Origin: a virus
IMG/VR virus record: IMGVR_UViG_3300027896_000052
Coordinates: 1 to 55,286 of that record
Length of the DNA stretch: 55,286 nucleotides
Reading direction: 5' to 3' (one strand)
Of the stretch, positions 657 to 55,286 are shown one piece after another. The translations under genes and the position numbers were made by a program. The notes under the pieces were generated by a model that was given only the letters and a program-made list of their open reading frames with translations, was not told where the DNA came from and did not search any database. Each line of letters opens with the position of its first letter. The stretch's first letter is position 1.

Positions 657-830
657 TTAGCCGGGGCCGAGTTGGTTGACCGGGTTGATCGTGAAATATT
701 CCCATTGGGCCTGGACCAGCGGCGGGATCGGCGGCGGGTGCGGGCCCGGACATGAAGCCGCCGCAAAAATGAGGATGAGCGCCAGCGCGTACAGGGCGCC
801 GGTCAGGCGGATCCGGTGAGTGCTATTCAT
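657..830 (-). CDS. Small lipoprotein-like ORF fused to a tail-protein C-terminal remnant
   Basis: 57 residues; its ATG overlaps the stop of the tail gene above (TGATG). Residues 1-27 look like a signal peptide with a lipobox-like end: basic start, hydrophobic LYALALILIFAAA, then Cys27. A Pro-rich stretch (HPPPIPP) follows. The last 20 residues (LVQAQWEYFTINPVNQ and LGPG) nearly match the C terminus of the allele-B tail protein (54483-55121), and 46 bases of DNA are identical. I infer that recombination left the 3' end of a B-like tail gene behind a new signal sequence. Whether it is expressed is unknown. Confidence 0.6.
   Translation of the reverse strand: MNSTHRIRLTGALYALALILIFAAASCPGPHPPPIPPLVQAQWEYFTINPVNQLGPG
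661..706. repeat. 46-bp identity with 54487-54532 inside otherwise different alleles
   Basis: These 46 bases match 54487-54532 exactly. In allele B they encode the C terminus of the variable tail protein; in allele A they encode the C terminus of the 57-residue lipoprotein-like ORF. The flanks differ on both sides. This is the clearest recombination footprint in the variable locus. Confidence 0.9.
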
Positions 831-1507: not shown

Positions 1508-1520
1508 GACGTTCCCCCCT

Positions 1521-2042: not shown

Positions 2043-2051
2043 GGGAATCTC

Positions 2052-5539: not shown

Positions 5540-5540
5540 T

Positions 5541-8500
5541 TTAGATCCCCAGCGCCTCTCGGAGTTGATCCTTTCCGAAGTTCGTCTTAAGCCAGCCGAT
5601 GAGCTCTGGCCCGATCTTCTCCCGGACGACATTGCGAACGCTCGCGCCGTCGACGGCCGAGATTTCAAAAGTGGCCGCCATATTGAAATTGACGGTCCGC
5701 CCACCTTCCCCGCCTATTGATCCGCCGCCGCCTTTTTCGCTCGAACCACGGGTAGCGATCTCGGCCAACTGATCGAGAGATAGGACAGCTTCCGTCTTCT
5801 TCTCAGCGACCCAGGCCAGCGTAGGGGTTTCGAAGACGGCGCCCGTCGCAGCCTTCGGGACCGTCGAAAGGGCCGCGACGACCTTCGTCGTCTCTCCCCA
5901 GATATCATTGAGGAGCGAATTCGTTTCCTTGGCGAGGTCGATTTGATTGACCGCGAACCACCATTTTTCATCGCCCTGGGCCTGTTCGTAGACCATGATC
6001 CCGATCAAATCCCTGAACATGTCGTGCATTTCCTGGTCGAGATCTTTGATCATTTTCAACCAGTACGTGACATCGGTTTGTTTCTGCGGCCCCTTGAAGA
6101 GATCGAGAACCGAAGCCACAGCGGTCACGACATTGGCGATCGTGGAGATCACCCCGGTCGCTACTCCCCCGACCGCTTTTCCGGCTACGCCGGCAACATC
6201 GCCGATCGCTCCTGCCCCTTTTGAAGCCGTGTCAGCGATCCCTTTTCCGACCGTATCAATCATATTCGAAGCGGCGGTCGCAAGGGCTTCGGACGTTTTT
6301 TTGAGGATGATATTTTCCAAGAAATCGGTCAGCCATTTCTTCGCCAGGTCCCCGACCAGGGTGAAAAAAGTATCTTTGATATCCTTCCAGAGACCGCCGA
6401 CCAAAGATTTCAAGGCCTTCCCGTTGAAGATGTTATCCCATGAAAGGGTCTGGGCCCAAGAAGAGATCGTCGATGAGAAACTCGAGGAAATGCTCGAAAT
6501 AACCCCATTCCATATGCTCGCTTCCTGAGCTGCGAGCTCCTGCTCGAGAGCCAGCCCTTCTTGAAGAATCGCAATCTTATTGTCCTTCTGTTCTTTGGTT
6601 AGGCTGAGATTATTTCTGACTGCCTCTATGTTAAGTCTTGTTTCTTCCGCTATTGACCAGGCCGCATAATCGGAAGAGCTCATCGATAATTTCATCTTCA
6701 TCGATTCGAGCTTTGAGAATTCCTGGGCCTGGTTATTCCAACCCGCGATCGCAGCTTCCTCGCCGGCCCTTTCCGCGGCCATGATCTCAGCATCCAGGGC
6801 GAGAGAATCGTCTCGCTCGGACATATCGATCCCGTGGATCTTCACGGCCAGGGCTTGTCGGGCGAGGGCTTTCCAATCGTAGAAATCCTTTGTAGCCCCC
6901 AACTCTTTGAAAATAGTTTTCTCTTGTTCGGCCTCCTCTAGGGCTGCATCCGTCCTCGCTTTGGCATAGGCATCGGATCCGACCGTTACGAGCTGATTCG
7001 TCAGATCTTTCTTCAGGGAAATCAGGCGATCATTATAGGTCTGATCGATCCCGATGGCTGCGTCGTTTGCGACCTGAAGATCAGCCGTGGCCTTGACTCG
7101 GGCTGAAGTATAGGCCGATTGGGAAATTTTCCCGTTCGCAAAGGCCGTATCCAACCCGGCCAGGACGTCCTTCAGGCGTTCGATTTCATCCCGGTTCTGC
7201 TGGACCGTGTTGATCCCCGACGTTTTCATGAAATCGGACCAGGCCTTGGATCCTTGGGTCAGGCTTTCGATTTCCTCCCGGGCCGCCTTCATGGCCAGTT
7301 TATAATTTTCCCAGGATATCTGATGTTCCGCCAACTTTGTCCCGAGCGTCGTCATGATGTGCTGGAGTTCGGTTATACGATCGTTGGCATCAGAGATCGT
7401 GGGGATCGATTTCGATTTCAAGAAATCCTGCCAGCCGGTCGATTCGATCGTCAGCTTTTTCTGGGCCTCGGCCTCTTTCTCAAGCTGGGTAGCATGTACT
7501 TTTCCGACCTCAGCGAGGGCCTTTTGGAGCGGGATCCCTTCCTCTCCGTGTTTGATGGCCATGGCCATGGCTGCGATATTGCCGTGGTATTTCTTCGTCA
7601 GATCGTCCAGGTCTTCCTTCAGCAGGGTCCCGTTCTCGACCAACATATAGATCTTGTCGGAAAGACTGGCCTCGGCATCTTTGAGACGGGTCGCTGCCTC
7701 GGCTGCGTAATCCTCCGCGACCGCGACCTCATGGAGTTTGATGAGGTAAAAGGCGATCGCCGCGACGGCGATGCCCCAGAGCCCTACTGAGGCCGTCAAG
7801 GCGCCGGCCGTCGTCCCCAAGGCAGTAGCGACCATCTGAAGGCCGAGGACGATATTCGGCAGCATGAAAAGGACCGGTCCGAGGACGACCATGAAGGCCC
7901 CGATTCCCCCAACAGAAAGGGCGATGATCTTGACGAGCTCGCCGTGGCCTGAAATCCAAGTCGTGACCTTCCCGACGACCCCGGTGATCCCTTGAACGAC
8001 CGAGGTCAGAGTCGGGAGCAGTTGGGTCGAAATTTCTTTCCCGATCCCTCCCATCCCGGCTTTCAGGCCGATCAGGCTGTCCTTAAAATCGTTCGCCGCG
8101 GCGGCATCCTCTTCGGAATAAATAAGACCGAGCTTTCTTGCCTCCTCCCAATTGTCCTTGAGCCCTTGACGGCCCAAATTCAGGAACGGGATCAGGTCGG
8201 CGCCGGCCTTCCCGAATACTTTCATGGCCATGGCGCTCTTGTGCGGGCCATCTTCCATCTTCGAAAATCTATCGGCCATGTCCAGGAGGACGTCGTTCAT
8301 CGGTCGGAGGGCCCCATCCTGAGTCTCCCTTACATCGACCCCAAGTTCCTTGAAGGCGCCGCCTGTCCTCTTCCCGCCGTCGCCGGCGATCTCCATGTTT
8401 TTCCCTAGGAATTTAAATCCTGTCGCCAGGCCCGCTAGGGAAGTCCCATTTTGATCGGCTGCGAGCTTATAGCCGCTCAGGATTTCAGTTCCGACGCCGG

Positions 8501-8759
8501 TTTTAATACTGAGCTCGTGGATTTCATGGCCGGCTTCCGTCGTTTTCATGATCATCGACGAGAGGACTCCGGTTATCGCCCCGCCGGCGGCAGTCATGGC
8601 CGTACCGATCCCAGCGATTGTCTTGGAATGCCCTAGGATCCCCGCAGCGAGCCCGCTGGCGTCCTTGCCCGCCTCTTTGATCTTGGCTTCCCAGCCGCTC
8701 TTGTCGAGGAGGAGTTTACCAATGATCGACCCGGCTAAAAATCCGCCCATCGTACTCAT
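5541..8759 (-). CDS. Tail tape measure protein
   Basis: 1072 residues, the longest gene in the window, lying between the tail chaperones and the tail-tip genes. The N terminus has the Gly/Ala-rich phage TP901-type pattern (GIGTAMTAAGGAITGVLSSM). A hydrophobic cluster at about residues 270-345 (LSVGGIGAFMVVLGPVLFML and AVAAIAFYLI) and another at 830-900 are typical of tape measures. Long helical, Ala/Lys/Glu-rich stretches fill the middle. It sets tail length and probably enters the host membrane during injection. It overlaps the chaperone frame by ATGA. No muralytic domain seen. Confidence 0.93.
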   Translation of the reverse strand: MSTMGGFLAGSIIGKLLLDKSGWEAKIKEAGKDASGLAAGILGHSKTIAGIGTAMTAAGGAITGVLSSMIMKTTEAGHEIHELSIKTGVGTEILSGYKLAADQNGTSLAGLATGFKFLGKNMEIAGDGGKRTGGAFKELGVDVRETQDGALRPMNDVLLDMADRFSKMEDGPHKSAMAMKVFGKAGADLIPFLNLGRQGLKDNWEEARKLGLIYSEEDAAAANDFKDSLIGLKAGMGGIGKEISTQLLPTLTSVVQGITGVVGKVTTWISGHGELVKIIALSVGGIGAFMVVLGPVLFMLPNIVLGLQMVATALGTTAGALTASVGLWGIAVAAIAFYLIKLHEVAVAEDYAAEAATRLKDAEASLSDKIYMLVENGTLLKEDLDDLTKKYHGNIAAMAMAIKHGEEGIPLQKALAEVGKVHATQLEKEAEAQKKLTIESTGWQDFLKSKSIPTISDANDRITELQHIMTTLGTKLAEHQISWENYKLAMKAAREEIESLTQGSKAWSDFMKTSGINTVQQNRDEIERLKDVLAGLDTAFANGKISQSAYTSARVKATADLQVANDAAIGIDQTYNDRLISLKKDLTNQLVTVGSDAYAKARTDAALEEAEQEKTIFKELGATKDFYDWKALARQALAVKIHGIDMSERDDSLALDAEIMAAERAGEEAAIAGWNNQAQEFSKLESMKMKLSMSSSDYAAWSIAEETRLNIEAVRNNLSLTKEQKDNKIAILQEGLALEQELAAQEASIWNGVISSISSSFSSTISSWAQTLSWDNIFNGKALKSLVGGLWKDIKDTFFTLVGDLAKKWLTDFLENIILKKTSEALATAASNMIDTVGKGIADTASKGAGAIGDVAGVAGKAVGGVATGVISTIANVVTAVASVLDLFKGPQKQTDVTYWLKMIKDLDQEMHDMFRDLIGIMVYEQAQGDEKWWFAVNQIDLAKETNSLLNDIWGETTKVVAALSTVPKAATGAVFETPTLAWVAEKKTEAVLSLDQLAEIATRGSSEKGGGGSIGGEGGRTVNFNMAATFEISAVDGASVRNVVREKIGPELIGWLKTNFGKDQLREALGI

Positions 8760-9324
8760 TGGCTATCCTCCTCCTCGGCTTCGGCTATCTTGATCTGCCA
8801 GCTTAAAATCTCCAGGGCATCGCTCATGTCTTCCGCGCTGCCGTTCATGGCGATCCGGGTTGACGTCAGATTATCGATTTTTCTTTCCAGCACCTTGACT
8901 TTCGCCTTCCGGTGCCAAAAATTAAAATCCCTTATGTCCATCTCCTCCAGGCGATCGTAGGAAATAGAGCCATGGAAGGCGTCAGCAATTATGCCGCAGG
9001 CGTCCCCCCAGGCTTCGAGGCGTTTTTTTCCTCTCCCGTCGGCCCCTTAGCAAGCTGCTTCCGTATCTCGGCGAGGAGATTCCGGATGTCCTTGACGTCG
9101 AGTTCGTTGGCGACCTCGGCCGGGCAGTTGCTGATCAGCGGAAGCTGGCCATAGAGGCCCTCGACCTTGCCCTTGGCGATCTGGAGCTCGAGTTTTTGGG
9201 CCGCCTCGAAACGTGCCCGGTTGATCCTCCCGACCTGGTAGGTCTTGCCGTCGATCTCAAAGGTGAAAGGACTGTGCAAGGCCCCCTTGGTGACGAAACT
9301 CAGAGGTGTTTTTTCAGGGCTCAA
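8756..9324 (-). CDS. Tail assembly chaperone GT, -1 frameshift product
   Basis: Predicted 189-residue fusion of the 111-residue G protein (first 101 residues) with an 88-residue extension in the -1 frame. After slippage at 9022-9028 the -1 frame is open (KKRLEAWGDACGIIADAFH) and runs without a stop into the segment that starts MDIRDFNFWHRK at 8941 and ends at 8756. This is the lambda G/GT arrangement directly before a tape measure gene. The GT protein would bind the tape measure and recruit tail-tube subunits. The 61-residue segment from ATG 8941 could alternatively be made alone. Confidence 0.85.
8989..9324 (-). CDS. Tail assembly chaperone G
   Basis: 111 residues. The likely start is a TTG at 9324 that overlaps the tail-tube stop; no ATG fits. 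It has an alpha-helical, Lys/Glu-rich pattern (ARFEAAQKLELQIAKGKVEG; LAEIRKQLAKG) and contains the slippery heptamer near its 3' end. As in lambda G, it is the more abundant form, with a minority of ribosomes shifting to make GT. Confidence 0.82.
   Translation of the reverse strand: MSPEKTPLSFVTKGALHSPFTFEIDGKTYQVGRINRARFEAAQKLELQIAKGKVEGLYGQLPLISNCPAEVANELDVKDIRNLLAEIRKQLAKGPTGEEKNASKPGGTPAA
9022..9028 (-). promoter_or_regulatory. Programmed -1 frameshift site A AAA AAC
   Basis: Read on the minus strand, GAA AAA AAC is in frame in gene G, giving the canonical X XXY YYZ heptamer AAAAAAC. The zero frame stops at 8989, while the -1 frame is open for 88 codons to 8756. The G-rich stretch CTGGGGGG lies about 13 bases downstream. 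Slippery sequence, open shifted frame and gene order all agree. Confidence 0.88.
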
Positions 9325-9842
9325 GGGGCAACCCCGATAGTCCCGAATTCGCCGTTCATGCCGCTGGTCATATCCGGGAAGACCAGGCACTTGCAGGCGA
9401 GGACCCGCTGGCCGGACCGGTCAAAGCCGATCTCGAATTCCCGGTACGGGTGCACCTTGTAGAGGTGCGTCCATTCGGAATGGACCGTGCTCACGACCCC
9501 GTCCCTCATCGGCTTGATGACGACGGCCTTGGCGTTGACGTACATGTCCGATCCGCATTTATTGCGGAGAGTCAGTACGCTCCCGCTCAGGGCCGAGCCG
9601 GGCCAGACCGTGTTGAGCTGTGCCAGGGTGCTCCGGGTCATCGGGATCGTCAGCTCCATCACGGAGCCGGCGAAGACGCCGTCGACCGGGGCGTCCCCGT
9701 AACCTTCCTCGAAGACCTTGCTCACGCTGTCCTTCATGGAGAGCGCGACCTTGCCCAGGAACGGACTCAGTTTGATCGCCGTTCCGCCGTAGTCCCACAC
9801 GACTTCGCAGGGACCGATGTCGCCCATAGGAAGTTTCGGCAT
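9321..9842 (-). CDS. Major tail tube protein
   Basis: 173 residues with a strong ribosome site (GAGGAGG). Size and position between the tail terminator and the chaperones fit a tail-tube subunit. It has a compact beta-rich, Gly/Val-rich sequence (VFAGSVMELTIPMTRSTLAQ; YREFEIGFDRSGQRVLACKC). Expected to be among the most abundant virion proteins. No Ig-like extension seen. Confidence 0.8.
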   Translation of the reverse strand: MPKLPMGDIGPCEVVWDYGGTAIKLSPFLGKVALSMKDSVSKVFEEGYGDAPVDGVFAGSVMELTIPMTRSTLAQLNTVWPGSALSGSVLTLRNKCGSDMYVNAKAVVIKPMRDGVVSTVHSEWTHLYKVHPYREFEIGFDRSGQRVLACKCLVFPDMTSGMNGEFGTIGVAP

Positions 9843-9870
9843 ATTTGCCTCCTCTTAAAATTTCGGCTCC

Positions 9871-10299
9871 TCAGAGCCGGGTAATCCTAAAAATATAGTT
9901 CGCCGAAAAGGTGAACGTCTTTTGCTCATTCGGATTTTCGATCGGCGCCGGCGGGGCGACTCCGGAGATCGTGTTCGCCAAATAGGCCTCCCCGCTCGTG
10001 AGAACGGGAAGCCGCCAACCGGCCTGGCCATGCATTTTATCGTAGAAGATCCGGGCATCCGCGCGCGCCGTAAAATATGTTTTCGCCCGGGTCAGAATCT
10101 GAATCGGCTTTTGCTCATAATCGGGCCAGTCATCATCCGTCGCCGACGTCGCATTCTCGAGGATCAGCGAGTACCTGTCGGGAATCGGGATCACGGGCGC
10201 GCCGGGCTTTTGGATCGGGAGATGGCCGACAAAGAGGTCGACCCCGATCGTCTTCCCCGTCCGGTTCTCGATAAATTGGGCTATTTCCTGAAGCATCAC
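9871..10299 (-). CDS. Tail terminator-like minor protein
   Basis: 142 residues. Start is a GTG at 10299 or the adjacent ATG at 10296, overlapping the upstream stop. The opening (LQEIAQFIENRTG) and the alternating pattern resemble phage minor capsid or tail-terminator proteins (LYS... RYSLILENA; PIQILTRAKTYFTARADA; AYLANTISGVAPP). In siphoviruses this protein caps the finished tail and docks on the head connector. Identity rests on weak pattern plus gene order. Confidence 0.65.
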   Translation of the reverse strand: MMLQEIAQFIENRTGKTIGVDLFVGHLPIQKPGAPVIPIPDRYSLILENATSATDDDWPDYEQKPIQILTRAKTYFTARADARIFYDKMHGQAGWRLPVLTSGEAYLANTISGVAPPAPIENPNEQKTFTFSANYIFRITRL

Positions 10300-10727
10300 C
10301 TGCCCCCATTATCCAAAACGTAATCCGCGATATCTTTCATCAGCTCGTCTTTATGCGTCGCTAACTTCGTTTCGAGGTATTTCGGGCCGCTTCCGGGAAG
10401 GGTCCAATGCGTGACCTCTCCCCATTGCTCATTGTTTACGGACTCATGGAGTTTGGCCGCGTATTCGGTATTGAATCCCCCGTCCTGTTCAATCCGATCT
10501 TCCGTGATGACGCAGGTCCCGATCGTCTCGCTGGCCCATAGCCGGCCCTGTTTATGCGGGACCCGCGGCTCTTCCTTGATGGCATAAGCCAAGAGTTTCG
10601 CCCAAGCCTTGAAAAGCGCCTTGGGAATGAGCGTCAAGGTGATGAGCCGGGAAACCGCACCCAAGCCTTTCAAGAGATCGTCGATGCTCTCGATCTTGAA
10701 GGTTTCGTTTTCAGGTCCGTAGGCCAT
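10296..10727 (-). CDS. HK97 gp10-like head-tail / tail-completion protein
   Basis: 143 residues. The pattern fits gp10-like proteins: an N-terminal helix (IDDLLKGLGAVSRLITLTLI), then PHKQGRLWASETI, GFNTEYAAKLHESVN, GSGPKYLETKL, and a final amphipathic helix. YAAKLHE and G.KYLE are recurrent motifs in that family. Position between the connector and the tail terminator agrees. Probably a neck protein. Confidence 0.75.
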   Translation of the reverse strand: MAYGPENETFKIESIDDLLKGLGAVSRLITLTLIPKALFKAWAKLLAYAIKEEPRVPHKQGRLWASETIGTCVITEDRIEQDGGFNTEYAAKLHESVNNEQWGEVTHWTLPGSGPKYLETKLATHKDELMKDIADYVLDNGGR

Positions 10728-10736
10728 TGGCTTTCT

Positions 10737-11048
10737 CTACCCGACGAGGGCCTCGTAATGGTGAATTATTTTCCCATTTTGGCACGGTTCGATGCTCAGG
10801 ACAGGGTGATCGATCCCTCCGAAACGAAGGACGGACCGGATGTCGGCCACGGTCATCGGCTTTCGGGACAACATGACGAGGGCCGTCGCTATGAGTTCCT
10901 CGCCTTTCCCGACTCGGAGGACCCGATGTGTCGTTTCGATCCTGCATTTTTCCGGCGTCAACGTCGGGGCCCCGGAAGGTTCGCCCCATTTATCGAGCGC
11001 CTGCTTCACCACGACCAGGTTATTGATCAGCAGGCTTTCGTAGCTCAT
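10737..11048 (-). CDS. Head-tail stopper / adaptor-like protein
   Basis: 103 residues, overlapping the methyltransferase stop by ATGA. A small beta-rich protein (PEKCRIETTHRVLRVGKGEE; SVLRFGGIDHPVLSIEPC) that sits between the two connector regions. In related phages this slot holds the second connector (stopper). The glycan cassette separates it from the first connector at 16731-17363, so the cassette has been inserted within the neck gene set. Confidence 0.6.
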   Translation of the reverse strand: MSYESLLINNLVVVKQALDKWGEPSGAPTLTPEKCRIETTHRVLRVGKGEELIATALVMLSRKPMTVADIRSVLRFGGIDHPVLSIEPCQNGKIIHHYEALVG

Positions 11049-11866
11049 GGCCGCGGCCCCTTTCCGCCGACCGAGCCGGAAATCGCTCTAGGAAGCCCCA
11101 GGACGGGCTTTTGGCCTCCATCGGGGGTCCTTGCCTGGCCGGCCTGCCGTTCGCCCTGGCCAGCCCCGATTCCGCCACGGCATGGCCGCAAAGGCTTCGG
11201 ACCGCTGGCCCTGATGATGAAAGCCCAATACCAAATGAAATTTCCGAGCCCTGGAGCCGTCCGCGGCGTCCCATCCTGGTTGACTTCCTCCTCCGTCACG
11301 ATTTCCGCCTCGAGGCCGTTCGGCTTCATGGCGCCGTAAATATCGGAAAGCGTCCAATTCACCTGGGGCTCGTAGATCCGGCCCGGATCGACGTCGCGCT
11401 CGCCGCCTGTCCGGACTCGGCAAAATTGGATCAGCATCCCTCCGGCCGGCCTGAGTTTCCAGCCGAAAGTCTCTAGATAATCTTGGGCGACCGCCCGGCT
11501 CAGGTGCTGAAAGACGTTGAAGGAATAAACGAAATCGACATCCGGCATCTGGAGCCCCCAGCCCGGCTTGTATGCGATCGGGTGATAATTGAAGATCCGG
11601 AGACCTTCGAGATAGGTCTCGAGCTCGGGCATGGCCGCCTCGACATCTAGGCAATAAACTGCCTCGACCAGCGGGGCCAGCTTCGCCGCCTCTCGGCCAT
11701 AGCCGCTCCCGATGATGGCGATCCTATGCTCTGGCTTCAGACTAAAATACTCAGCGATCTTCTTGGCGTCCGGGAAGACCCGCGTCCCATGGCCCTGGTA
11801 GTACGGATGTTTGGCGAAATACCCGGCTCGATGCATGGCGTTCCAGGCTTCGGGATCTTTGCTCAT
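11045..11866 (-). CDS. SAM-dependent methyltransferase (class I)
   Basis: 273 residues; start at 11866 overlaps the previous stop by ATGA. SAM-binding motif I is IAIIGSGYGREAAKL, the acidic end of strand 2 is VYCLDVEA, and motif IV-like VDFVYSFNVFQHLS follows. The region after motif IV (GWKLRPAGGMLIQFCRV) is typical of Methyltransf_11/25 enzymes. The last 50 or so residues are low-complexity Gly/Pro/Arg. Last gene of the glycan cassette; a sugar or glycolipid methyltransferase is plausible by context, but the substrate is unknown. Confidence 0.8.
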   Translation of the reverse strand: MSKDPEAWNAMHRAGYFAKHPYYQGHGTRVFPDAKKIAEYFSLKPEHRIAIIGSGYGREAAKLAPLVEAVYCLDVEAAMPELETYLEGLRIFNYHPIAYKPGWGLQMPDVDFVYSFNVFQHLSRAVAQDYLETFGWKLRPAGGMLIQFCRVRTGGERDVDPGRIYEPQVNWTLSDIYGAMKPNGLEAEIVTEEEVNQDGTPRTAPGLGNFIWYWAFIIRASGPKPLRPCRGGIGAGQGERQAGQARTPDGGQKPVLGLPRAISGSVGGKGPRP

Positions 11867-12417
11867 TCGATCACCACCAGATGGCTGAATTTTGATCCCA
11901 GGTCGGTTACCCGGGGGAAAATCTTGAAGTCCGAGGCCTCCCATTGTGAAACGTGGCCAGCCGATCCGTAAAAAACCTGGGAATAGAAAACGACCGCCCG
12001 CGGCGTCGATATCAGAATCTTTGTCCGGTCCTTGGCTTGGGGCTCGGCCTTGATCTCCTGCAGGAATTTCAGCATCCGTTCCTTCGAGGTGTGTTCGACG
12101 ACATCGATCATCAGGATCAGATCATGCATAGCGAAAAAGGGAGGTGGTACTTGAAATAAATTGACATGCGTATGATGGTCATAAAGACTCTGATGCCAAG
12201 GGAGATCGGTAAAATATTCCGCCTCCTCAATGCAGTTGATTTTGAATTTCGGGCGGGGGCTCAGATCTCCGGCCTCCGCAGCTTCGGACAGGAGGAGTTC
12301 GCGGATCAGTAGCCCAAATTTCCCGAAGCCGGCGCCGACGTCGAGGATATTCGTCGGCTTGATCCTCTTGATCGCCAGCAGGATCGCCAAAAGGTTTTCG
12401 GGATATGAGGTCATCAT
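11863..12417 (-). CDS. SAM-dependent methyltransferase-like protein
   Basis: 184 residues, ATGA-coupled on both sides. Motif I is ILDVGAGFGKFGLLI, strand 2 reads INCIEEAEYF, and the post-motif LILMIDVVEHTSKE is typical of class I methyltransferases that act on small molecules or glycans. TKILISTPRAVVFYSQ follows. The fold seems complete though short. Together with the neighbouring methyltransferase it suggests two methylation steps on one glycan or cap. Confidence 0.8.
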   Translation of the reverse strand: MMTSYPENLLAILLAIKRIKPTNILDVGAGFGKFGLLIRELLLSEAAEAGDLSPRPKFKINCIEEAEYFTDLPWHQSLYDHHTHVNLFQVPPPFFAMHDLILMIDVVEHTSKERMLKFLQEIKAEPQAKDRTKILISTPRAVVFYSQVFYGSAGHVSQWEASDFKIFPRVTDLGSKFSHLVVIE

Positions 12418-13319
12418 CGGACGGCCTCCCTGGCCTCGCCGTAAAGGGCCGCGATCCTGGCCGTCACGTTCTCGATCGAGTAGATGGTCATGTCTTCGGG
12501 CGGCTCCGTCCATTCGACTGCCGTGACCTTCCCGGCCCCGTCGACGGTATAAATCCAGCCCGGTTTACCGCAGGCCCAGCCTTCGATCGTCGTCCGGCCC
12601 AGCATGACGCCCGAGGTTTCGTCGCAGGCATGGATATGGTTTTCGATCTCCCAGATCGGGGGATAAATCTTGGCGTTCGCCGGGACATTTTCCGGTTTGA
12701 GGTGATGATTTTGGCCGACTAGCCGGAATTCTCGCTCTGTCTTCCAGCAATATTCGCCCGTCTTTCTGATGGCCTCGAGACGGAGCCTGTCGAAGGTCCC
12801 GACGAAGAGGACCATGGGCCGGGCATCCGGGTCCTGTGGCTGTTCCCGGAGGTATTCATAGTTCCGGTTGAAGCGCGTGAAATCGATTCCGTTCGGAATG
12901 ACGTCGACCCGCTCTGCCGGGATCCCGTCCTTCGCCTCGAGCTTGTCCTTGATGTCCTGGCGGATGGCGATGTATTTGAAGATCCGGGGGCTCAGGATCG
13001 GGGCCTCGCATTCAAATTGAGAGTGGACCGTGCTCACGGCGGCTGCTTTCGGGAAAAGACCGAGGAGGGATTCGCTCGGCTTCCGTTCATTGAGGTGGAG
13101 GACGTCGAAGTCCATCCCGAGAAGCGGGAAGCCCTCGCAGGGCACGGCCGTCAGGCCTGCGGCTTGGGCCCTGGCCAGCATCTCTCCGCCCAGGTTGATG
13201 AGCGGCGCCGTGATGACCGGCTCATGGCCGATTCGCTTCAGCTCCCGGGCGAGTTCGTAGACATACATTTCCGCCCCGGTGAGATCCCGAAACTGTCGGA
13301 TCGAAATCAGGACGCGCAT
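12414..13319 (-). CDS. Glycosyltransferase, GT-B (family 4-like)
   Basis: 301 residues. The N-terminal half has GAEMYVYELARELKRIGHE, the usual donor-side loop and helix of GT4 enzymes. The linker has VDVIPNGIDFTRFN, a hallmark of the family, followed by VLFVGTFDRLR. The C-terminal domain has GRTTIEGWACGKPGWIY, equivalent to the E-x-G-x-P donor-binding loop. The length is near minimal. No membrane segment, so probably cytosolic. It overlaps the preceding GT2 gene by 13 bases. Acceptor and sugar cannot be told. Confidence 0.85.
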   Translation of the reverse strand: MRVLISIRQFRDLTGAEMYVYELARELKRIGHEPVITAPLINLGGEMLARAQAAGLTAVPCEGFPLLGMDFDVLHLNERKPSESLLGLFPKAAAVSTVHSQFECEAPILSPRIFKYIAIRQDIKDKLEAKDGIPAERVDVIPNGIDFTRFNRNYEYLREQPQDPDARPMVLFVGTFDRLRLEAIRKTGEYCWKTEREFRLVGQNHHLKPENVPANAKIYPPIWEIENHIHACDETSGVMLGRTTIEGWACGKPGWIYTVDGAGKVTAVEWTEPPEDMTIYSIENVTARIAALYGEAREAVR

Positions 13320-20714: not shown

Positions 20715-23111
20715 TCAGTCTGCTTTTTTGGTCCAAACCGCCGCGGCCTTCCGCGCGGTCCCGCCCATGGAGAAGCCCGTGAGCTTTCCGCTCTGGACTT
20801 CCCCCCAAATCTCGGGATCCGTGACCTTGATCATCATCCACCACGAGCCGGCTTTAATGATCTCTGTCCCTTTTTTCATGTCGGCTTCGGGTTGGAAGCT
20901 CTCCAGGATCGGGAAATAATGGGCCGTCCCTTTGTGCATGACCTTGATCCGATTCGGATTTTTGGCGTAGCGTTCCATGAAGGAATACATCGCCGCGGTG
21001 ATCTCGGCGGCCGTGGTCATGTCGCCCTGGGTATCGACGGCGTTCGGTTCGTAGATGATCCCCCCGCAGATCTGCTGGGCGGCATCGACTTTCCGGATCT
21101 GGAAGACGAGGCGCTTCGAGAACCAGGCCCGCTTCTCCGTGCCCTCTGCCTTTTTGAATTCGGGCGGCTCCTTCTCAAATTCCGCATAATGGGATTTCAG
21201 GTGGTCATAGATCCCGGATCTGTCGGCGACCGGGACGGAGATCTGGGTGCGTCCGCCCTGAAGGGCCGCCATCGCAGCCGCGACGCCCCGCCAGACCGCC
21301 TTCAGACCGTCGGCGTGGTGATGGGGCAGCTTGTAACTCCCTTTGTTGTCCGGAGCTGCAGGATCGACCCATGCACAGATCTTCGCCAGCGTCTCGACGT
21401 CGGCAGCCGCGACCTCGGCGCCAGCGTCCCAGGCCTCAGCCTCCGGAGCCGTCCCATAATCGTGATAGGGGATGACGCCGGCCGCGGCTTTCCCAAAAGG
21501 CTTGGGGGCATGAGCCTCGGCCCAGGTCTTCGCCTTCTCCTCCGTCCATTTGTTCTTGTCGAAGAGGTAGGCCTGGATGTGGGTCGTCCCGCTATTGTCG
21601 GCGGTAAGGTTCCCGATGACGGCTTTGATCCCAAGATCTGCCGAGAGATCGATTATCCGAAACGAATCTTGGGCGAAATCGGCGGGATCCGTGATGCGGA
21701 CCCGGACGTATGCATCGGTCGTCCGGGCCTCGAATTTGTGCATTTTCACCATCTTACGGGCTTCGATTGCTCCATCTGCCCAGGCCGCCTCCTCCTCGAT
21801 CAGATCGAGAACATGTTGAGATGATGGCAGGGTCCGCTTTTTGATATGGCTATCGACCCAGGCTTGGGCGGCTTCCATCGTCCATTTCGTTTTGTCGAAA
21901 AGGTAGGTTGCGATCTGGTGATCGGTCACATCCTCGAGGGCTTTGATCCCCTGGGCCTCGCTCAGGATGATCGTCCGGATTTCATGACCCGCCGGGATGG
22001 CCCGGACCGGGATCCGGCGCAGGGTCATGGTCGTTTCGGGTTTGGCGATGACTTCCTGAGCCGCCTTGTCCGCGCGGAGCCGGTCTCGGAATGTCGTCTC
22101 TTTCATCAGTTCGATATTTTCTTTCGTGTCCATGGATGCCTCCCGTTTTTCGGTTTGAATATCATCTTGCGGGATGTTCTCACCAGACCCGCCAGGATTT
22201 CCTTCATCGATCGCCAAGGCCGAGGGATCGATCTTTTCGATCGGATCCTCATCCTTGCCCTTGCCCAACTCGACCGCCGGATCCGGACCGCCGCCGGGTG
22301 AGTTCGGCTTATTGCAGATGCCGCCGACCGGCTCCTCGTCGCCGCAGATAATACATCGGGGATGGCCATTCGGATGCGTCCACTTCGCGGGCTCGAATTT
22401 GTGTACGCCTTTGGCTTTCGCGCTCTTTGCGCTCTCTCGGATGACGGCGCTCTCGGCTTCGAAGCTCGCTTTTTCCGCCGGCGTCAGGGCTTTCCCGATC
22501 TCGAATTCAGCGTTCCCGTCGCCTCCGTTGCCGGGTACGATTTTATTCGTCGGTTTGGGCCGGAGGACTAGGTCGAAGACCGGCATATGGCTTCTGCCAC
22601 AGCCGGCGTGTTCGTAGGCAACCTGGATATCCTTCCCCGTTTCCTGCAGGGCCTTGGCCAGGCAGGCTTCGAGGGTCGCCGAGCTGTAGAAGATCCCGCG
22701 GTCTGTCCTTCCCGCCTTGATGACCACCTGGACGGCCGAGGCCTCCCGGGGATTTTTAATGAAGTCCCCGGTGATCGCCACGTAATCGTTCGCCAGCACG
22801 ATGTCGCCGAGCCCGGGAACATCCAGGCTCCAGAGCCCCTTCCGGACGACCCGGTCTTTCACCAGGCGATCGATCTCGCGTTCGCCCGAAATCGGAAGTC
22901 CGCGGCGAGTCATCTCAACCCGGAGCTCGACGTACCGGCTCAAGAAATCGCATTTCGCCATTCCGCGGATTTGATCTGTCGCCGGGTCATGGAAGAATCG
23001 ATCGAAAAGCTGGACGAAGCGGAAACGAAAATCTCGCAGCTCTCCATCATCCATGGCCTTGAAGGTCTCGGCCTTCGCTTCTTCGATGAGGTGTTTAAAT
23101 TTGGCCGGCAT
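20715..23111 (-). CDS. Multidomain prohead protein with C-terminal XkdF-type protease
   Basis: 798 residues. The C-terminal 120 residues match putative phage protease XkdF: GGIIYEPNAVDTQGD, a His in RIKVMHKGTAHYFPI, GSWWMMIKVTDPEIWGEV and the serine in LTGFSMGGTARK. The His and Ser are the likely catalytic pair. The N-terminal part (about 1-230) has a separate fold, then a zinc-knuckle-like CIICGDEEPVGGICNKP. Two copies of a repeat (YLFDKTKWTMEAAQAWVDSH and YLFDKNKWTEEKAKTWAEAH) lie in the middle. Probably cleaves scaffold and capsid arms during maturation. Unusually long for XkdF. Confidence 0.78.
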   Translation of the reverse strand: MPAKFKHLIEEAKAETFKAMDDGELRDFRFRFVQLFDRFFHDPATDQIRGMAKCDFLSRYVELRVEMTRRGLPISGEREIDRLVKDRVVRKGLWSLDVPGLGDIVLANDYVAITGDFIKNPREASAVQVVIKAGRTDRGIFYSSATLEACLAKALQETGKDIQVAYEHAGCGRSHMPVFDLVLRPKPTNKIVPGNGGDGNAEFEIGKALTPAEKASFEAESAVIRESAKSAKAKGVHKFEPAKWTHPNGHPRCIICGDEEPVGGICNKPNSPGGGPDPAVELGKGKDEDPIEKIDPSALAIDEGNPGGSGENIPQDDIQTEKREASMDTKENIELMKETTFRDRLRADKAAQEVIAKPETTMTLRRIPVRAIPAGHEIRTIILSEAQGIKALEDVTDHQIATYLFDKTKWTMEAAQAWVDSHIKKRTLPSSQHVLDLIEEEAAWADGAIEARKMVKMHKFEARTTDAYVRVRITDPADFAQDSFRIIDLSADLGIKAVIGNLTADNSGTTHIQAYLFDKNKWTEEKAKTWAEAHAPKPFGKAAAGVIPYHDYGTAPEAEAWDAGAEVAAADVETLAKICAWVDPAAPDNKGSYKLPHHHADGLKAVWRGVAAAMAALQGGRTQISVPVADRSGIYDHLKSHYAEFEKEPPEFKKAEGTEKRAWFSKRLVFQIRKVDAAQQICGGIIYEPNAVDTQGDMTTAAEITAAMYSFMERYAKNPNRIKVMHKGTAHYFPILESFQPEADMKKGTEIIKAGSWWMMIKVTDPEIWGEVQSGKLTGFSMGGTARKAAAVWTKKAD

Positions 23112-24210: not shown

Positions 24211-25279
24211 GGCGAGTCCTCCTCGAGCGGGTGAGTCTCTGCGGTCGAGATCGTTTTACCAATCGCTTCCTGACCCGGCCTGAAAACTGCGAAACGGTCT
24301 TTTTGTCAAACTGAGCTTTTTGCTTGGCCATCATCTGGACTTCCTCGGCTGGGATCTGGGTATCTCCCTCGTCTGGGCCCTCGGCATAAACCCAGGTCCC
24401 CTCACAATTTGGATGAGCGGGCAGGACGCCCTCGGCATCATCGACTGAATAGATCGACCCATTATCTTCCCGGCATTCATCAGGATCCCCAACTGGATCT
24501 TCGACGCGCTCGAGGTACTTGATGTCGTTTTCTTTATAGGCCGAGCGGATCCCCTCATTTAGGGCATAGGAGGTTTCCGTCCGGGCGATCGTGTCCGTCC
24601 GGTAGGCCAGGAGCCGATCCGCGTACCGGCCGGCCCGCTCATCAGCCGTCTCTTCGTCCATCCCGCCATCGACGAGCTTCGACCAATAATTCCCGACGGC
24701 TGCCGTTTGCTTTTCTGTGAGTCCGACTACATTGTTCGTTCGCAGATCCCGAGCGATCGCCTGGTTCGATTTGCCGTTGACGATCCGCGGGGCGATGAAG
24801 CCGATGATGCCCTGGCGGGTCCGCTCCGTGATCTCCGTGATGAGTTCGCCCGTGTGTTCGAGGCTCCACTTGTAGGCCGCCTCCGGCTGCGGGCCCTTGA
24901 GCGGAATGTATGGCCCGGGGCTACTTCCGCCGACGTCCTTGGCCATTCGGGAGGCCTTGAATTTGGCTACCTTGGGCATGGCCAGCTCCCAGCCGGTACC
25001 GTGCCCCAGGTCAATCGATGAAAGAAAGATCCGACGGCCTTGATCCTCGACCCATTTCCAGTCGATCAGGTTGTCCGCGATTTCCGTAGCCGTCTTTCCC
25101 TTGAGGCCCGCCTTGATCTTGGTATTCAGTACCTTCCGAATCATCATCATCCAGGCAGCCGACGCCAGCGTCATCCGCCGGCGTATGGACCTGGCCGCCT
25201 GCTTTTTCTGACGGATGATCTCATGCCGGCGAGCATTCGTCAGTTTCTTCCGGATCGAAATGAGCTCGGTCAGGTCCAT
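24203..25279 (-). CDS. MuF-like head morphogenesis protein
   Basis: 358 residues; the start at 25279 overlaps the previous stop (TAATG). The SPP1 gp7/MuF pattern is clear: a helical N-terminal part, then ADRLLAYRTDTIARTETSYA with NEGIRSAYKEN, followed by RVEDPVGDPDECREDNGSIY and PAHPNCEGTWVY (the conserved Asp-Cys/His-Pro-Cys of the family). It binds the portal inside the head. Near the C terminus is the octapeptide QFDKKTVS, which the terminase tail also contains, encoded by the same 24-base sequence. Confidence 0.85.
   Translation of the reverse strand: MDLTELISIRKKLTNARRHEIIRQKKQAARSIRRRMTLASAAWMMMIRKVLNTKIKAGLKGKTATEIADNLIDWKWVEDQGRRIFLSSIDLGHGTGWELAMPKVAKFKASRMAKDVGGSSPGPYIPLKGPQPEAAYKWSLEHTGELITEITERTRQGIIGFIAPRIVNGKSNQAIARDLRTNNVVGLTEKQTAAVGNYWSKLVDGGMDEETADERAGRYADRLLAYRTDTIARTETSYALNEGIRSAYKENDIKYLERVEDPVGDPDECREDNGSIYSVDDAEGVLPAHPNCEGTWVYAEGPDEGDTQIPAEEVQMMAKQKAQFDKKTVSQFSGRVRKRLVKRSRPQRLTRSRRTRHA
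24291..24314. repeat. 24-bp exact repeat, copy in the MuF-like gene
   Basis: The same 24 bases occur at 29192-29215 in the terminase gene, in the same strand and reading frame, encoding QFDKKTVS in both. Flanks are unrelated on both sides. A 24-base match is far beyond chance in 55 kb. Confidence 0.9.
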
Positions 25280-28775: not shown

Positions 28776-30816
28776 ATTGTCCTCCGTTCGGGCCGGCTAC
28801 CGATCCGGTCCCGGAATTCGCGTCTACAGGCCCTACAACGGGCTTTTGACCGTCGGGGGGGCCTGGTACCCGGGGGGCCTGGGCTTCCCCTTGGCTTGCC
28901 CCGGTTCCCGGCGGCGGCGGCCGTAAAGGTTCGCCGTCTGTGACCCCCTCGGGGGGGGGCTGGGGTCCCTGACCCGGCTTAGGGGGCCAGATCTCGTTTA
29001 CCTGGGGGTCCGGCGGCTTCCCGGGCCCCTCATCGTTGCCATCAGCTCCCGGAGCTCGCCTGGCTTCGGCTGCCGCCCTTTGGATTGTGTGTTTCTCCGC
29101 GCTGGGGGCCTCGATCGCCGGGGGGCTGATAGGGGGGGCCGCCAGCTGGGATGTCGGGCTCAAATCCGATGCCGGATTGCTTGAAATCGGAGAAACGGTC
29201 TTTTTGTCAAACTGAACAGATGCTTGACCTCCCCCAATGATGGGCAGACCGCCCGTCGCCGCTATGATCCTTGCCGCCGTGGCCACGGGCTGCCCGGCGA
29301 GTCCTGCGATCGCCGCCATGACCGCCGGGTCGATACGGGCGTCGCCTCTCGAGGTGGCCGCCATGGCCTTCGTCGTTACGAAGACCTTGCCTTTCCGCGG
29401 CGCCGGCTTCATTTGCCACATCGCAAAATACCGGGTTTCGTCCATCGCATGGTCCCGCTCCTTGACCGGCTTGCCGTGGCGTTGGATGTAGCCCGCTTCC
29501 TCGGAGATCCAATGCCGGTTGACCTGGTTGATCCACATCGTCGGCGGCCCGATGACCGGACGCAGGGCTTTCCGGACCGCCTCGAGCCCGATGTCGACGT
29601 CGTTATCAGCTTCGGTCATGGGGATGAAGGCCCGCCATTCCGACATCAAGTCCGGCCGGCTGGGATCTCCGACCCCGCCTCGAATGTTCGGCCACCAGGC
29701 CTTCCCCTGAGCCGTTTTGATCAGATGGGGATTGTCGCCGGCTTGCTGGATCTCATCGACCCGGACCCAGCCGATATTGAAGAGCTGCCAGCAGCCAAGG
29801 CTGAAAGGATGGGTCCCGCCCCAGTCGATCGAGACCAGGGCATAGCGTCCGGGATCGAAGCCCGGGAGATCCCCGCGGCTATGAATCTTCGGGTCATATT
29901 GATCGCCGTAAACGAGGTTGCCTGGCCCGATCTTGCGACAGAGCCATTCGACCTGCAGGGCGCTTTCGCTCAGGTACTCGAGCTTGTCGATGAAGTCCTG
30001 GACGCGGTAGAAGCCATCCGCTTGCTTCATGTGCTTTCCCGGGCACCAGCTCGAGAGCTTGCAAGTCGAGCACGAATAATCGAGGCAGGGCTCGAGGCAT
30101 TCCCAAATACACCAGCGGTAGATCGAAGTCTGATGGATCCTGGCCTGCTCCAAGGCCTCATCCATCATGCCGCCCGAGCGGTGGTTCGTCGAATACTGAC
30201 CCAGGCGGGCGAAGATCCCATGCTTCGATTGCGGCTGCGAAAGGGCCGCCCTATATACTTCAGCCGGCATCTCGTCAATTTCGTCCATGATGAGGTGCTG
30301 AGGATGCGGGCCGCGCGTCGATCGCGTGGAGGCCGTCAGGACGGCGACCGTGCTGCCGTTCCGCCAACTCGAGAGGCGCCGCGTCGGCTCCATCTTCAGG
30401 TATTCGTCCTGCAGGGTCGTCAGGGTCCAGATGTCTTCCATGGCCTTGTAGACTTTCTCCGATTGGTCGAGGGATCCGCCGAGGATCGTCGTTTCGAGTC
30501 GATGATTGAAACTCGAAAGGACCCAGGCGATCAGCCCGGCGAGGTAGCTCTTGCTGCCGCTACGATTTGCCCACACGAGGTAATTCAGAATCCTGCCGAT
30601 CAGGACGTCGACCAGGAAATCGAAGGGGGCGCTGTGGTCCGCCTCGAGGCAGTTGTGTCTGGTTCCGACCCGCGGCTCCCGGAGCCAGCCGAGCAGGTTC
30701 TGGACGTCAGCCTTGGTTCTCAGACCCGTCTGTCTTAGGTTCTCGAGGGCTGCCCGCTGGATCGACGGGGCAAACTGGGACGACCAGAATTTCTGGATTT
30801 CTTCCGCCGTCGCCAT
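28738..30816 (-). CDS. Terminase large subunit
   Basis: 692 residues from ATG 30816 (two upstream ATGs at 30948 and 30924 are possible but would overlap the small subunit more). The ATPase has an atypical Walker A ANRSGSKS (83-90) and Walker B LIMDE (175-179). The nuclease has Asp331 (VSIDWGG) and Asp384 (GVGDPSRPDL). A Cys cluster lies at 240-258. After residue 520 comes an unusual tail of about 170 residues, rich in Pro, Ala and Gly, that includes QFDKKTVS. Motor and headful or cos cutting; it docks on the portal. Confidence 0.9.
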   Translation of the reverse strand: MATAEEIQKFWSSQFAPSIQRAALENLRQTGLRTKADVQNLLGWLREPRVGTRHNCLEADHSAPFDFLVDVLIGRILNYLVWANRSGSKSYLAGLIAWVLSSFNHRLETTILGGSLDQSEKVYKAMEDIWTLTTLQDEYLKMEPTRRLSSWRNGSTVAVLTASTRSTRGPHPQHLIMDEIDEMPAEVYRAALSQPQSKHGIFARLGQYSTNHRSGGMMDEALEQARIHQTSIYRWCIWECLEPCLDYSCSTCKLSSWCPGKHMKQADGFYRVQDFIDKLEYLSESALQVEWLCRKIGPGNLVYGDQYDPKIHSRGDLPGFDPGRYALVSIDWGGTHPFSLGCWQLFNIGWVRVDEIQQAGDNPHLIKTAQGKAWWPNIRGGVGDPSRPDLMSEWRAFIPMTEADNDVDIGLEAVRKALRPVIGPPTMWINQVNRHWISEEAGYIQRHGKPVKERDHAMDETRYFAMWQMKPAPRKGKVFVTTKAMAATSRGDARIDPAVMAAIAGLAGQPVATAARIIAATGGLPIIGGGQASVQFDKKTVSPISSNPASDLSPTSQLAAPPISPPAIEAPSAEKHTIQRAAAEARRAPGADGNDEGPGKPPDPQVNEIWPPKPGQGPQPPPEGVTDGEPLRPPPPGTGASQGEAQAPRVPGPPDGQKPVVGPVDANSGTGSVAGPNGGQYGKRKGRVFIPK
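29192..29215. repeat. 24-bp exact repeat, copy in the terminase gene
   Basis: Identical to 24291-24314 and in the same frame, encoding QFDKKTVS in the Pro-rich C-terminal tail of the large terminase. See the copy in the MuF-like gene. Confidence 0.9.
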
Positions 30817-53132: not shown

Positions 53133-53825
53133 ATGGTATACTCATCCCAGATGAAAAGCATCAGCGTCTATGGTCTTTATTCCACAGAACAGGGGACGTC
53201 TGTCGTCCGCTATGTCGGGCAGACGAAATATCCCTTAAACCAGCGGCGGAATGCTCATGTCAAACGGTCCCTGGGAAAAGCGGCCATTACTCATCTGCAT
53301 CGCTGGGTCCGGGATGTCTATTCGCGAGGCTTCGAGGTCAAGGCGATCCTCTTGAAATCCGGGGCTCATTGGAATTCGGATGAAATTGAATTTATTAGAA
53401 AATTCCGAGCGATGGGGATGGCCCTCACGAATTCCACGGACGGAGGGGAGGGGTGCTTGAATCCATGCCCGGAAATGAGGTCCAAAATCAGCGGATCATT
53501 AAAGGGAAAGCCCCTCCCCTTGAAGACCCGGCAGAAGATGAGTGAGGCTCACAAGGGGAAGGCCCGGTCCCGTGCGATATGCCGAAAAATTAGCAAGGGT
53601 TTGAAGGGCAATAAAAATGCCCTTGGCCGGGTATGCTCCCAGGAAACGATCCGAAAATTGAGCGAGGCCCACAAGCGGGAAAACCTGTCGGCCGAAACCC
53701 GCCGCAAGAATAGCGAATCACATAGAAGGGAAAACTTGTCGGCCGAAACCCTCCGTAAGCGGAGCGAGGGCTCAAAGGCTATGTGGAAACGAAAGAAGGG
53801 GAGGGACTCCGATGGTCGCCCTTAA
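53133..53825 (+). CDS. GIY-YIG homing endonuclease with NUMOD3 repeats
   Basis: 230 residues from ATG 53133 (or Met7 at 53151). The catalytic domain has VYGLYSTEQGTSVVRYVGQT (GIY-YIG variant, YG-L ... YVG), NQRRNAHVKR and HWNSDEIEFIRKF with the catalytic Glu. From residue 110 come about five NUMOD3-type DNA-binding repeats (SGSLKGKPL, MSEAHKGKA, LSEAHKREN, NSESHRREN). The last two repeats are nearly identical (RRENLSAET). It lies free-standing directly beside the variable tail locus, whose divergence begins 10 bases after its stop. Likely a mobile selfish gene. Confidence 0.9.
   Translation: MVYSSQMKSISVYGLYSTEQGTSVVRYVGQTKYPLNQRRNAHVKRSLGKAAITHLHRWVRDVYSRGFEVKAILLKSGAHWNSDEIEFIRKFRAMGMALTNSTDGGEGCLNPCPEMRSKISGSLKGKPLPLKTRQKMSEAHKGKARSRAICRKISKGLKGNKNALGRVCSQETIRKLSEAHKRENLSAETRRKNSESHRRENLSAETLRKRSEGSKAMWKRKKGRDSDGRP
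53134..53142 (+). promoter_or_regulatory. Possible extended -10 promoter of the endonuclease
   Basis: TGGTATACT fits the extended -10 form (TGnTATACT) but there is no convincing -35. Transcription would begin near Met7 (53151), giving an almost leaderless message. Freestanding homing endonuclease genes often have such internal promoters. Weak evidence. Confidence 0.35.
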
Positions 53826-53834
53826 AAAGCCCGT
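53735..53834. repeat. Exact repeat of the contig start (1-100)
   Basis: Second occurrence of bases 1-100; marks where the contig wraps. Sequence after it belongs to allele B of the variable locus. Confidence 0.95.
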
Positions 53835-54030
53835 TCGGCGGATCATCCGAGTTCTCCATCGGCCGGCTGTCATCGTCCTCGACCCCGAAATTTCGAGCAT
53901 CCGTATCCGGTCGAAAGGTTCCCGGCGCGAGTACCGCCTCCATTTCGACCTCGTTTTCCGGCTGGCCATGGAGGCTACGGAGCGGTCCGAAAAGCCGGCC
54001 CGGAAGCTGAGGCGGTCCGTCCTCAAATGA
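53812..54030 (+). CDS. Small conserved basic protein, allele B
   Basis: 72 residues, overlapping the endonuclease stop by 14 bases, with GGGGAGG upstream. Same gene as 78-302 in the other allele; most changes are conservative (SVRLRAKGSRTEYLL against SIRIRSKGSRREYRL) and the C-terminal basic tail differs. Conserved region LHRPAVIVLDPEISS. Function unknown. Confidence 0.75.
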   Translation: MVALKKPVRRIIRVLHRPAVIVLDPEISSIRIRSKGSRREYRLHFDLVFRLAMEATERSEKPARKLRRSVLK

Positions 54031-54482
54031 TCCCTTCCCCGGGGCTGGGGCCGATGGCGGTTCCCGGCCCCGGCCGGCCGTAAACGGCCGCGGCCGATGT
54101 CTTCCCTGCCCTGCAGGGGGCCTCCCCCCATTCACAACGAAAATCAAAAGTCAAGAAAAAGCCCGTTTTTTGGGTAAAATAAACCTCAAAACCGGGCTTT
54201 TTTTATGCCTCTAAATCCGCACACAATCGCCTACGTTCGATTTTTCGGGCTGCGGCTAGGGTCGGTTGTGGGCGGTCCGGATCGTCCGCCACGATCGTTC
54301 CCCTGCGTTTTCCTAAAAATCGCGCTAGGAGCCCCTACAATCGATCGGAGGCTGGATCAGCGTATCCCTGGTCTAGCCCCCGCCGACCGGCTCAAACGCG
54401 GGGGCAGCCCTTGCTAGGGCTGGGTTGAAAATAGGGGGGTCCGTGAATAGCCGCCCGGGTCAGATCAAAACCGGGCTTTTCG
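54031..54482. other. Convergent intergenic region, allele B
   Basis: 452 bases with no supported gene. Holds the allele-B terminator (54156-54204) and a stretch partly similar to allele A after it. Short reading frames here lack ribosome sites and are not conserved in allele A. Confidence 0.6.
54156..54204. terminator. Bidirectional intrinsic terminator, allele B
   Basis: AAAAAGCCCG (54156-54165) pairs with CGGGCTTTTT (54193-54202), with TTTT/AAAA extending the stem inward and a T-run after. Equivalent to 330-379 with a different loop. Confidence 0.87.
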
Positions 54483-55121
54483 TCATCCGGGGCCGAGTTG
54501 GTTGACCGGGTTGATCGTGAAATATTCCCATTCCGCTTGAACCACGGGCTGATTATACCAATTTGCGATGAAGAGTCCGACGCAGAGAGGCCCGATCGCA
54601 GTTGCCAGCGTCCTGGTATAAAACGAGGTCCAGCTCGTTCCATTCGTCGAATAATAGAAAATCCAGAGAGCCCCGAGATGGCTTCCCATGCAGCGAATTT
54701 TGAACCATTTCGGAACCGTTGCCTGGATCGTCGGCCCGGCGTAGAGCCCGCCATTCCCTTCGGTCCGGATTACGTCATCGGAGGCGTCATTGACCTGGTC
54801 GAAGAAGACGTCGTGGACCGAGGCTCCGCCGGCCTGGCCATCCGGGCCAATATAAAGCCCGCTCATGGTCCGGGGCCCTTTATTGAACGAATAGAGCTTG
54901 GCTTCGATGTCGCAGGGCATGAAGGGCAAGGGCATCGTTACCCGCGGCCGGTAATCTGAGCAGTCCTGACCGGCCTTCCCTTCGAAGACGAGTCGGCCGC
55001 CGGCCGGCGCCGCTGTCTTGTCCGAGCCGGATGTCCCCAAGGTCAGCCAGGGGTCCACCAGGGCCGCATTGAAATTATCGGTGAAAACCGGGAAGCCGCT
55101 TGCTCCGGGAATAAATGTCAT
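54483..55121 (-). CDS. Variable tail-tip protein, allele B (LamG/concanavalin-like)
   Basis: 212 residues with a GGAGGG site. Begins TFIPGASGFPVFTDNFNAAL, has VFEGKAGQDCSDYRPRVTMP, MSGLYIGPDGQAGGASVHDV and WFKIRCMGSHLGALWIFYYS, an LamG/laminarin-binding-like beta pattern, and ends WEYFTINPVNQLGPG. It occupies the same place as the allele-A protein (830-1507), with which it shares the opening (MT[Y/F]IPG) and the GPG end but little between. Probable receptor or glycan binder. Confidence 0.75.
   Translation of the reverse strand: MTFIPGASGFPVFTDNFNAALVDPWLTLGTSGSDKTAAPAGGRLVFEGKAGQDCSDYRPRVTMPLPFMPCDIEAKLYSFNKGPRTMSGLYIGPDGQAGGASVHDVFFDQVNDASDDVIRTEGNGGLYAGPTIQATVPKWFKIRCMGSHLGALWIFYYSTNGTSWTSFYTRTLATAIGPLCVGLFIANWYNQPVVQAEWEYFTINPVNQLGPG
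54487..54532. repeat. 46-bp identity with 661-706
   Basis: Encodes the C terminus of the allele-B tail protein here; the same DNA is the 3' end of the 57-residue ORF in allele A. See the finding on recombination. Confidence 0.9.
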
Positions 55122-55133
55122 GGTGCCCTCCGC

Positions 55134-55286
55134 TCAGATGATATACCAGGTCCCGGCGCCGCCGTCCTGGATCGTTATATTGACCCATTGAGCTGCGATG
55201 ATGTAGCTCGCAGCCCCGTCGATCGTTTCGGCCCCGTTCGGGGTCAGGGTGACCGTGAAGGCGGAGGCATCGATTTTCTTGACGTT
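55134..55286 (-). CDS. Tail fibre accessory protein, 3' part (wrap copy, allele B end)
   Basis: The last 50 codons and stop of the gene complete at 1521-2042, cut by the contig edge. Identical in its first 127 bases to 1547-1673, then differing in the final codons (GTWYII here, GAWYIL there) up to the stop. Shows that the breakpoint lies inside this gene. Confidence 0.85.
   Translation of the reverse strand, partial: NVKKIDASAFTVTLTPNGAETIDGAASYIIAAQWVNITIQDGGAGTWYII
55160..55286. repeat. 127-bp exact repeat of 1547-1673 (contig end)
   Basis: Second occurrence of bases 1547-1673. Just outside it (55159 against 1546) the copies differ. Confidence 0.93.

Follow-up and report, generated by a model that had tools for sequence, protein, structure and literature searches.

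The two ends of a viral contig (the window, a stretch of 55,286 bases analysed at full length) carry related sets of features. From left to right, each allele comprises the rest of a small plus-strand gene, a hairpin and a minus-strand tail-end gene. The features at the right end are:

53133 to 53825, plus strand: GIY-YIG/NUMOD3 homing-endonuclease-like gene, with its 3' end in the left anchor.
53735 to 53834: left anchor, allele B copy.
53812 to 54030, plus strand: small gene of allele B, 72 aa.
53835 to 55159: allele B, 1325 bp.
54148 to 54206: probable terminator hairpin of allele B (-22.2 kcal/mol and z -5.0 on the plus strand; z -4.6 on the minus strand).
54483 to 55121, minus strand: tail-end gene of allele B, 212 aa.
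55160 to 55286: right anchor, allele B copy, the final bases of the contig.

Those at the left end are:

1 to 100: left anchor, allele A copy, holding the last 29 endonuclease codons and the start of the small gene; identical to 53735-53834.
78 to 302, plus strand: small gene of allele A, 74 aa, an open frame.
101 to 1546: allele A, 1446 bp.
326 to 384: probable bidirectional terminator hairpin of allele A (-36.7 kcal/mol and z -5.6 on the plus strand; z -2.9 on the minus strand).
657 to 830, minus strand: lipoprotein-like frame of allele A, 57 residues, the lipobox being judged by eye.
830 to 1507, minus strand: tail-end gene of allele A, 225 aa, the protein 26% identical to that of allele B.
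1521 to 2042, minus strand: probable tail-appendage gene, 173 aa, directly upstream of the tail-end gene, with its 3' end in the variable block and the remainder shared.
1547 to 1673: right anchor, allele A copy, identical to 55160-55286; a second contig, L005, starts at 1547.

The exact 100-base match of the left anchor was bounded by the contig start and by the first mismatch at 101/53835, and the exact match of the last 127 bases by a mismatch just before 1547/55160 and by the contig end. These anchors were the two longest exact repeats of the window, followed by a repeat of 46 bases within the same pair of copies and then one of 24 bases elsewhere. Alignment of the interiors, comprising the whole of allele A and the first 1225 of the 1325 bases of allele B, gave a score of 388, compared with -96.5 to -133.5 for five shuffles. 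BLASTN of 1-1673 revealed DNA similarity between the alleles at 1-263 (90%), 326-718 (68%, E 1.8e-26) and 1491-1673 (91%). None was found at 719-1490, the tail-end gene, where kinship was visible in the proteins only (26% identity, E 2e-15), both of which have an IPG start and a GPG end. Gapped global alignment gave 84% for the small gene, 69% at 341-660, 93% at 661-718 and 72% for the tail-end gene, percentages which are inflated, as shuffled sequence scores 68-72% under the same scoring. Neither exact 16-mers nor BLASTN with 1-1673 turned up any other copy in the window. The coordinates given in the sequence-only reading were therefore exact to the base, with 100- and 127-base matches and diverged relatives between them. 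Its description of the interiors as homologous but diverged holds for the DNA of 1-263, 326-718 and 1491-1673, whereas 719-1490 is related at the level of protein only. Its statement that the ends are not a normal terminal repeat was upheld, since the ends share only 100 and 127 identical bases around a diverged interior, unlike the identical ends of a direct terminal repeat.

The endonuclease gene at the left edge matched the profiles PHROG 314 (E 1.4e-9) and PHROG 7168. Among Pfam profiles, NUMOD3 scored 21.2 bits, over the cut-off of 20.4, and GIY-YIG scored 14.6 bits, under the cut-off of 22.6; the profile matches place the gene in the GIY-YIG/NUMOD3 homing endonuclease family. Two imperfect repeats of 51 nt were observed at the end of the gene (53663-53767, 41/54 matches at that offset), although unlisted by a repeat finder, and the base equal to the first base of the contig falls within the second of them. 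The last 14 bases of the endonuclease gene also belong to the small gene, the 3' part of which is taken in by the variable block. Comparison of 63 codons between the alleles revealed 12 silent and 10 amino-acid-changing codons (dN 0.10, dS 0.38), results which suggest, on the evidence of codon changes, that both copies are maintained under selection. The hairpin that follows showed strong RNA folding on both strands and in both alleles (z -2.9 to -5.6). Folding on two strands is as expected for a bidirectional terminator between convergent genes, which the hairpin probably is. A consensus terminator scan flagged the hairpin of allele A and missed that of allele B; the sites found were not in excess over shuffles (2 versus 2.3 for allele A, 1 versus 3.7 for the right stretch).

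The tail-end protein had no match of useful score in PHROGs, Pfam or PDB sequences. AlphaFold2 modelling of the allele A protein from a two-sequence alignment yielded a model of low confidence (pLDDT 55.8, pTM 0.62), and the allele B protein modelled alone yielded no usable structure (pLDDT 30.6). Comparison of the low-confidence allele A model by Foldseek and VIA-align returned beta-sandwiches of a fold which we take to be concanavalin-like. The matches to this low-confidence model included 5jox_A, the C-terminal domain of a GH43 xylosidase (Z 16.5, rmsd 6.7, 195 aligned); 3mep_B (Z 16.1, rmsd 3.1, 166 aligned); 4azz_A, a CBM66 (Z 14.1, rmsd 2.8, 145 aligned); and two entries of mycobacteriophage Douge, 8zdq_v of the baseplate (Z 13.7, rmsd 6.2, 185 aligned) and 8zdp_v of the central fibre (Z 13.6). 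The predicted fold resembles the concanavalin-like carbohydrate-binding domains of the GH43 xylosidase C-terminus, 3mep, CBM66 and the Douge central fibre, from which the tail-end protein differs in that it has no sequence-family match and a model of low confidence.

The gene directly upstream encodes the 173-aa tail-appendage protein, for which relatives were found in L007 (55% identity over residues 83-170) and the L013 record (45% over residues 1-83), as well as a weak PHROG tail match (E 0.0035). A tape measure gene was located by PHROG search at 5541-8759, near the variable block. Because of the predicted fold and the place after the tail genes, a receptor-binding role is likely, and the model is consistent with the allele A tail-end protein being a probable receptor-binding protein with a concanavalin-like beta-sandwich. 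The evidence for a host-recognition gene comprises the nearby tape measure gene and the low-confidence predicted fold, with no family match. In the same way, the earlier designation of the region as a tail locus agrees with the position and with the low-confidence predicted fold but finds no counterpart in a family match.

The contig start interrupts the endonuclease gene and the contig end the tail gene; the missing part of each lies at the opposite end, and the frames seen across the joins stay open. When 40 bases of the right anchor were used as an exact query, one other IMG/VR contig was recovered, L005 (IMGVR_UViG_3300003852_000780, 11,644 bases), which is 100% identical to window 1547-13190 without a break and has as its first base 1547, where the alleles rejoin. 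L005 is a separate IMG/VR contig that may derive from the same reads as the window or from another sample. It ends at window 13190 for no visible reason, and a second fork at that position is possible; a pattern from the bases just past this end was found in no other viral contig.

De Bruijn graphs were built from the two local haplotypes with k = 55, 77, 99, 100 and 127. The simulated backbone unitig started at 1547 at all five values; the unitig of allele B ended, with k=127, at the base equal to 1673, or 55286, the last base of the window. At the left end, k=127 predicted a start at 53708; the observed 53735 is the prediction for k=100. Both ends were therefore fitted by no single k among the five tried, the overlap being 100 at the left and 127 at the right. 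The sequence-only reading had taken the 127-base overlap as the sign of a k-mer, an argument which stands for the right end at k=127 but fails for the left, where 100 bases fit k=100. A change of repeat number in the 51-nt repeat of the endonuclease gene was considered for the 27 missing left bases and rejected, since the deletion, worked by hand from the sequence, predicts a fork at 53728 and not at 53735.

The results are best explained, with a probability of roughly 0.88, by the contig ends being two alleles from an assembly-graph bubble of two near-identical phage lineages. This reading, already proposed from the sequence, is supported by the start of L005 at the rejoining point 1547 and by the right end obtained in the k=127 simulation. 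The contig would then run exactly once round a complete phage genome that is circular, or circularly permuted, in the graph of the assembly, along a path that enters at one allele and exits at the other. Two near-identical lineages would have coexisted in the source sample with a common backbone from 1547 to 53834, differing in a block of 1.3-1.4 kb at the end of the tail module. Within this block would lie the 3' part of the small gene, the terminator and the gene for a tail-end protein whose probable role is attachment to the cell surface. The assembler would have met a fork on either side of the block and ended the contig there. Homologous recombination between the identical flanking sequences may exchange the block in the population, and both versions are probably maintained through selection by receptor diversity.

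The fork at 1547 alone fails to separate a bubble from a repeat. A true duplication, in which one linear molecule carries diverged copies near both ends with paralogous tail-end genes as an imperfect long terminal repeat, would likewise create that fork, and is compatible with the presence of both copies on one contig and with both tail-end genes being open frames. The edges of such a repeat, however, must fall within the endonuclease gene on one side and the upstream tail gene on the other, leaving the genes cut at the contig ends to coincidence. Moreover, with a repeat, a halt or fork of L005 would be expected at the right edge, yet L005 continues for 11.6 kb. Terminal repeats are copied together and normally remain identical, contrary to the divergence of these copies. 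Since L005 runs past the repeat and the end-cut genes are completed by the opposite end, the bubble is favoured, and the duplication is improbable. An assembly chimera, with a piece of another phage misjoined at one end and no second lineage, could account for the misfit of the left contig end to the simple k=127 graph prediction. It is still less probable, as the same anchors flank both copies on the expected sides, related genes occur in the same order with the frames kept across the joins, and the fork recurs in L005.

Programmed variation within one lineage, by a diversity-generating retroelement, an invertible segment or a silent cassette, would suit variation in a probable receptor-binding gene that closes the tail module, but is the least probable of all, as no silent copy was found in the window, the RVT_1 (PF00078), Phage_integrase and Resolvase profiles, the only recombinase and reverse transcriptase families sought, had no match in the record, and the differences between alleles include insertions, deletions and silent codon changes and are not adenine-only. 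The same searches matched control genomes in 3/14 (RVT_1), 14/14 (Phage_integrase) and 10/14 (Resolvase) cases. A diversity-generating retroelement in particular is at odds with the lack of a reverse transcriptase match to this profile and with the indels and many types of change.

Within the two-allele bubble, allele A appears to be of mixed composition. Bases 661-706 are identical to 54487-54532 (46/46), where the allele B tail-end gene ends, and in allele A this block sits past the stop of the allele's own tail-end gene. On the same ungapped diagonal, matches fell to 3-7/10 leftward and soon to 1-3/10 rightward; in the gapped BLASTN alignment the left flank was still related DNA. Except for two changes, the 57-residue frame has the same last 20 residues as the tail-end protein of allele B. 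Because a lipoprotein-like start is joined to nearly the last 20 codons of B type, allele A looks like a mosaic that may have arisen by replacement of most of a B-type gene, a reading drawn from the sequence. In the L013 record (58,183 bases), a distant relative, the two upstream tail genes have counterparts of 37% and 45% identity, and different genes follow these, among them a lipoprotein-like frame of 464 residues, as judged by eye, with no Pfam match. A profile of the two alleles gave no match in the L013 record, and none in the five records reached through loci, as run without a positive control.

Closing the ends gives one full genome per allele, of 53,734 bp with allele A or 53,613 bp with allele B as calculated from the coordinates; the genome is therefore probably complete although its ends differ. 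Terminase-like, portal, head-morphogenesis, protease, tape-measure, endolysin and replication genes were found, the PHROG scan covering 29 of the 79 frames and the small gene. A tRNA search of the genome and a PDB profile search yielded no matches, and Pfam searches with nine further proteins returned only matches below cut-off. Neither allele was found in other IMG/VR contigs with queries P0002 and P0003, in a search that may omit the near records of the window, and no other viral contig contained a DNA pattern from the left anchor; these searches thus supplied neither a third allele nor a genome with a single allele. Relatives of allele B were found in 0 of 15 stretches. Among four stretches, L008 gave the one match to allele A and was rejected as a relative, the match being short and on the strand opposite to the long frames of L008. 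Host contigs searched with the 906-aa gene and the portal contained no relatives. Phage records gave no match to the DNA of 1-4800; by protein, 34 were found via the tape measure and 5 via the terminase, every one with identity below 60% and coverage of the query below 80%.

The variation is that of a metaviromic island at a probable receptor-binding locus, a kind already known in phages. Two papers, PMC3909814 and PMC7468147, describe near-identical phages that carry variable islands with genes for host recognition; according to the second, assembly breaks off at such a region, and several versions occur together in one metagenome. The present locus agrees with the islands as outlined there in that a short variable stretch, here with a probable host-recognition gene, lies in an otherwise near-identical genome, and in that homologous but very diverged versions of genes would coexist. 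Here the block is diverged and the backbone in L005 is 100% identical, as compared over 11.6 kb of one contig. Unlike the islands in those accounts, both versions lie in one contig whose path circles the whole genome, and the variation is known from contigs rather than from read recruitment. Bubbles in phage assembly graphs are treated as variant genomes by Phables (PMC10563150), and the locus would likewise present two paths between shared vertices as two variant genomes. It was, however, seen from one finished contig without the graph, and its block is far more diverged than the variants of more than 99% identity stressed in the Phables abstract.

Strain variation can thus hide complete phage genomes, as this genome would be missed by a test for identical ends. 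Contigs with short shared anchors at their ends around a diverged, related block are searchable across viral collections, and such a search would yield complete genomes and variants of receptor genes together. The locus would also be a further natural example in which a probable receptor-binding block varies while the backbone stays constant.

The endonuclease gene offers a possible, though doubtful, driver of exchange: the enzyme may cut the block in co-infecting relatives, with repair copying the whole receptor-binding block. Nuclease genes at boundaries of genetic exchange between phages are described as HEG-islands in PMC10448857. The resemblance lies in a GIY-YIG-type endonuclease gene directly at the edge of a variable block; unlike the islands described there, the endonuclease here is in the shared part, and cleavage of an allele is putative. 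If this reading were true, a selfish gene would be the engine of host-range shuffling, and the mosaic end of allele A (approximately the last 20 B codons) would be a scar of partial copying.

Minor observations were made on the head and packaging genes. An exact direct repeat of 24 bases occurs at 24291-24314 in the head-morphogenesis-like gene and at 29192-29215 in the terminase-like gene. In the protein of 798 residues encoded at 20715-23111, an XkdF-like head maturation protease domain occupies only the last ~150 residues, and the first 650 residues have no listed match. A relative, L010 (17,435 bases of a 17,848-base contig), was searched for P0001 and the 906-aa gene, neither of which was found in it. 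Its terminase protein is 80% identical to that of the window, and where it matches the head and packaging genes at greatest length, DNA identity is ~80-86%, with rows assigned by output order.
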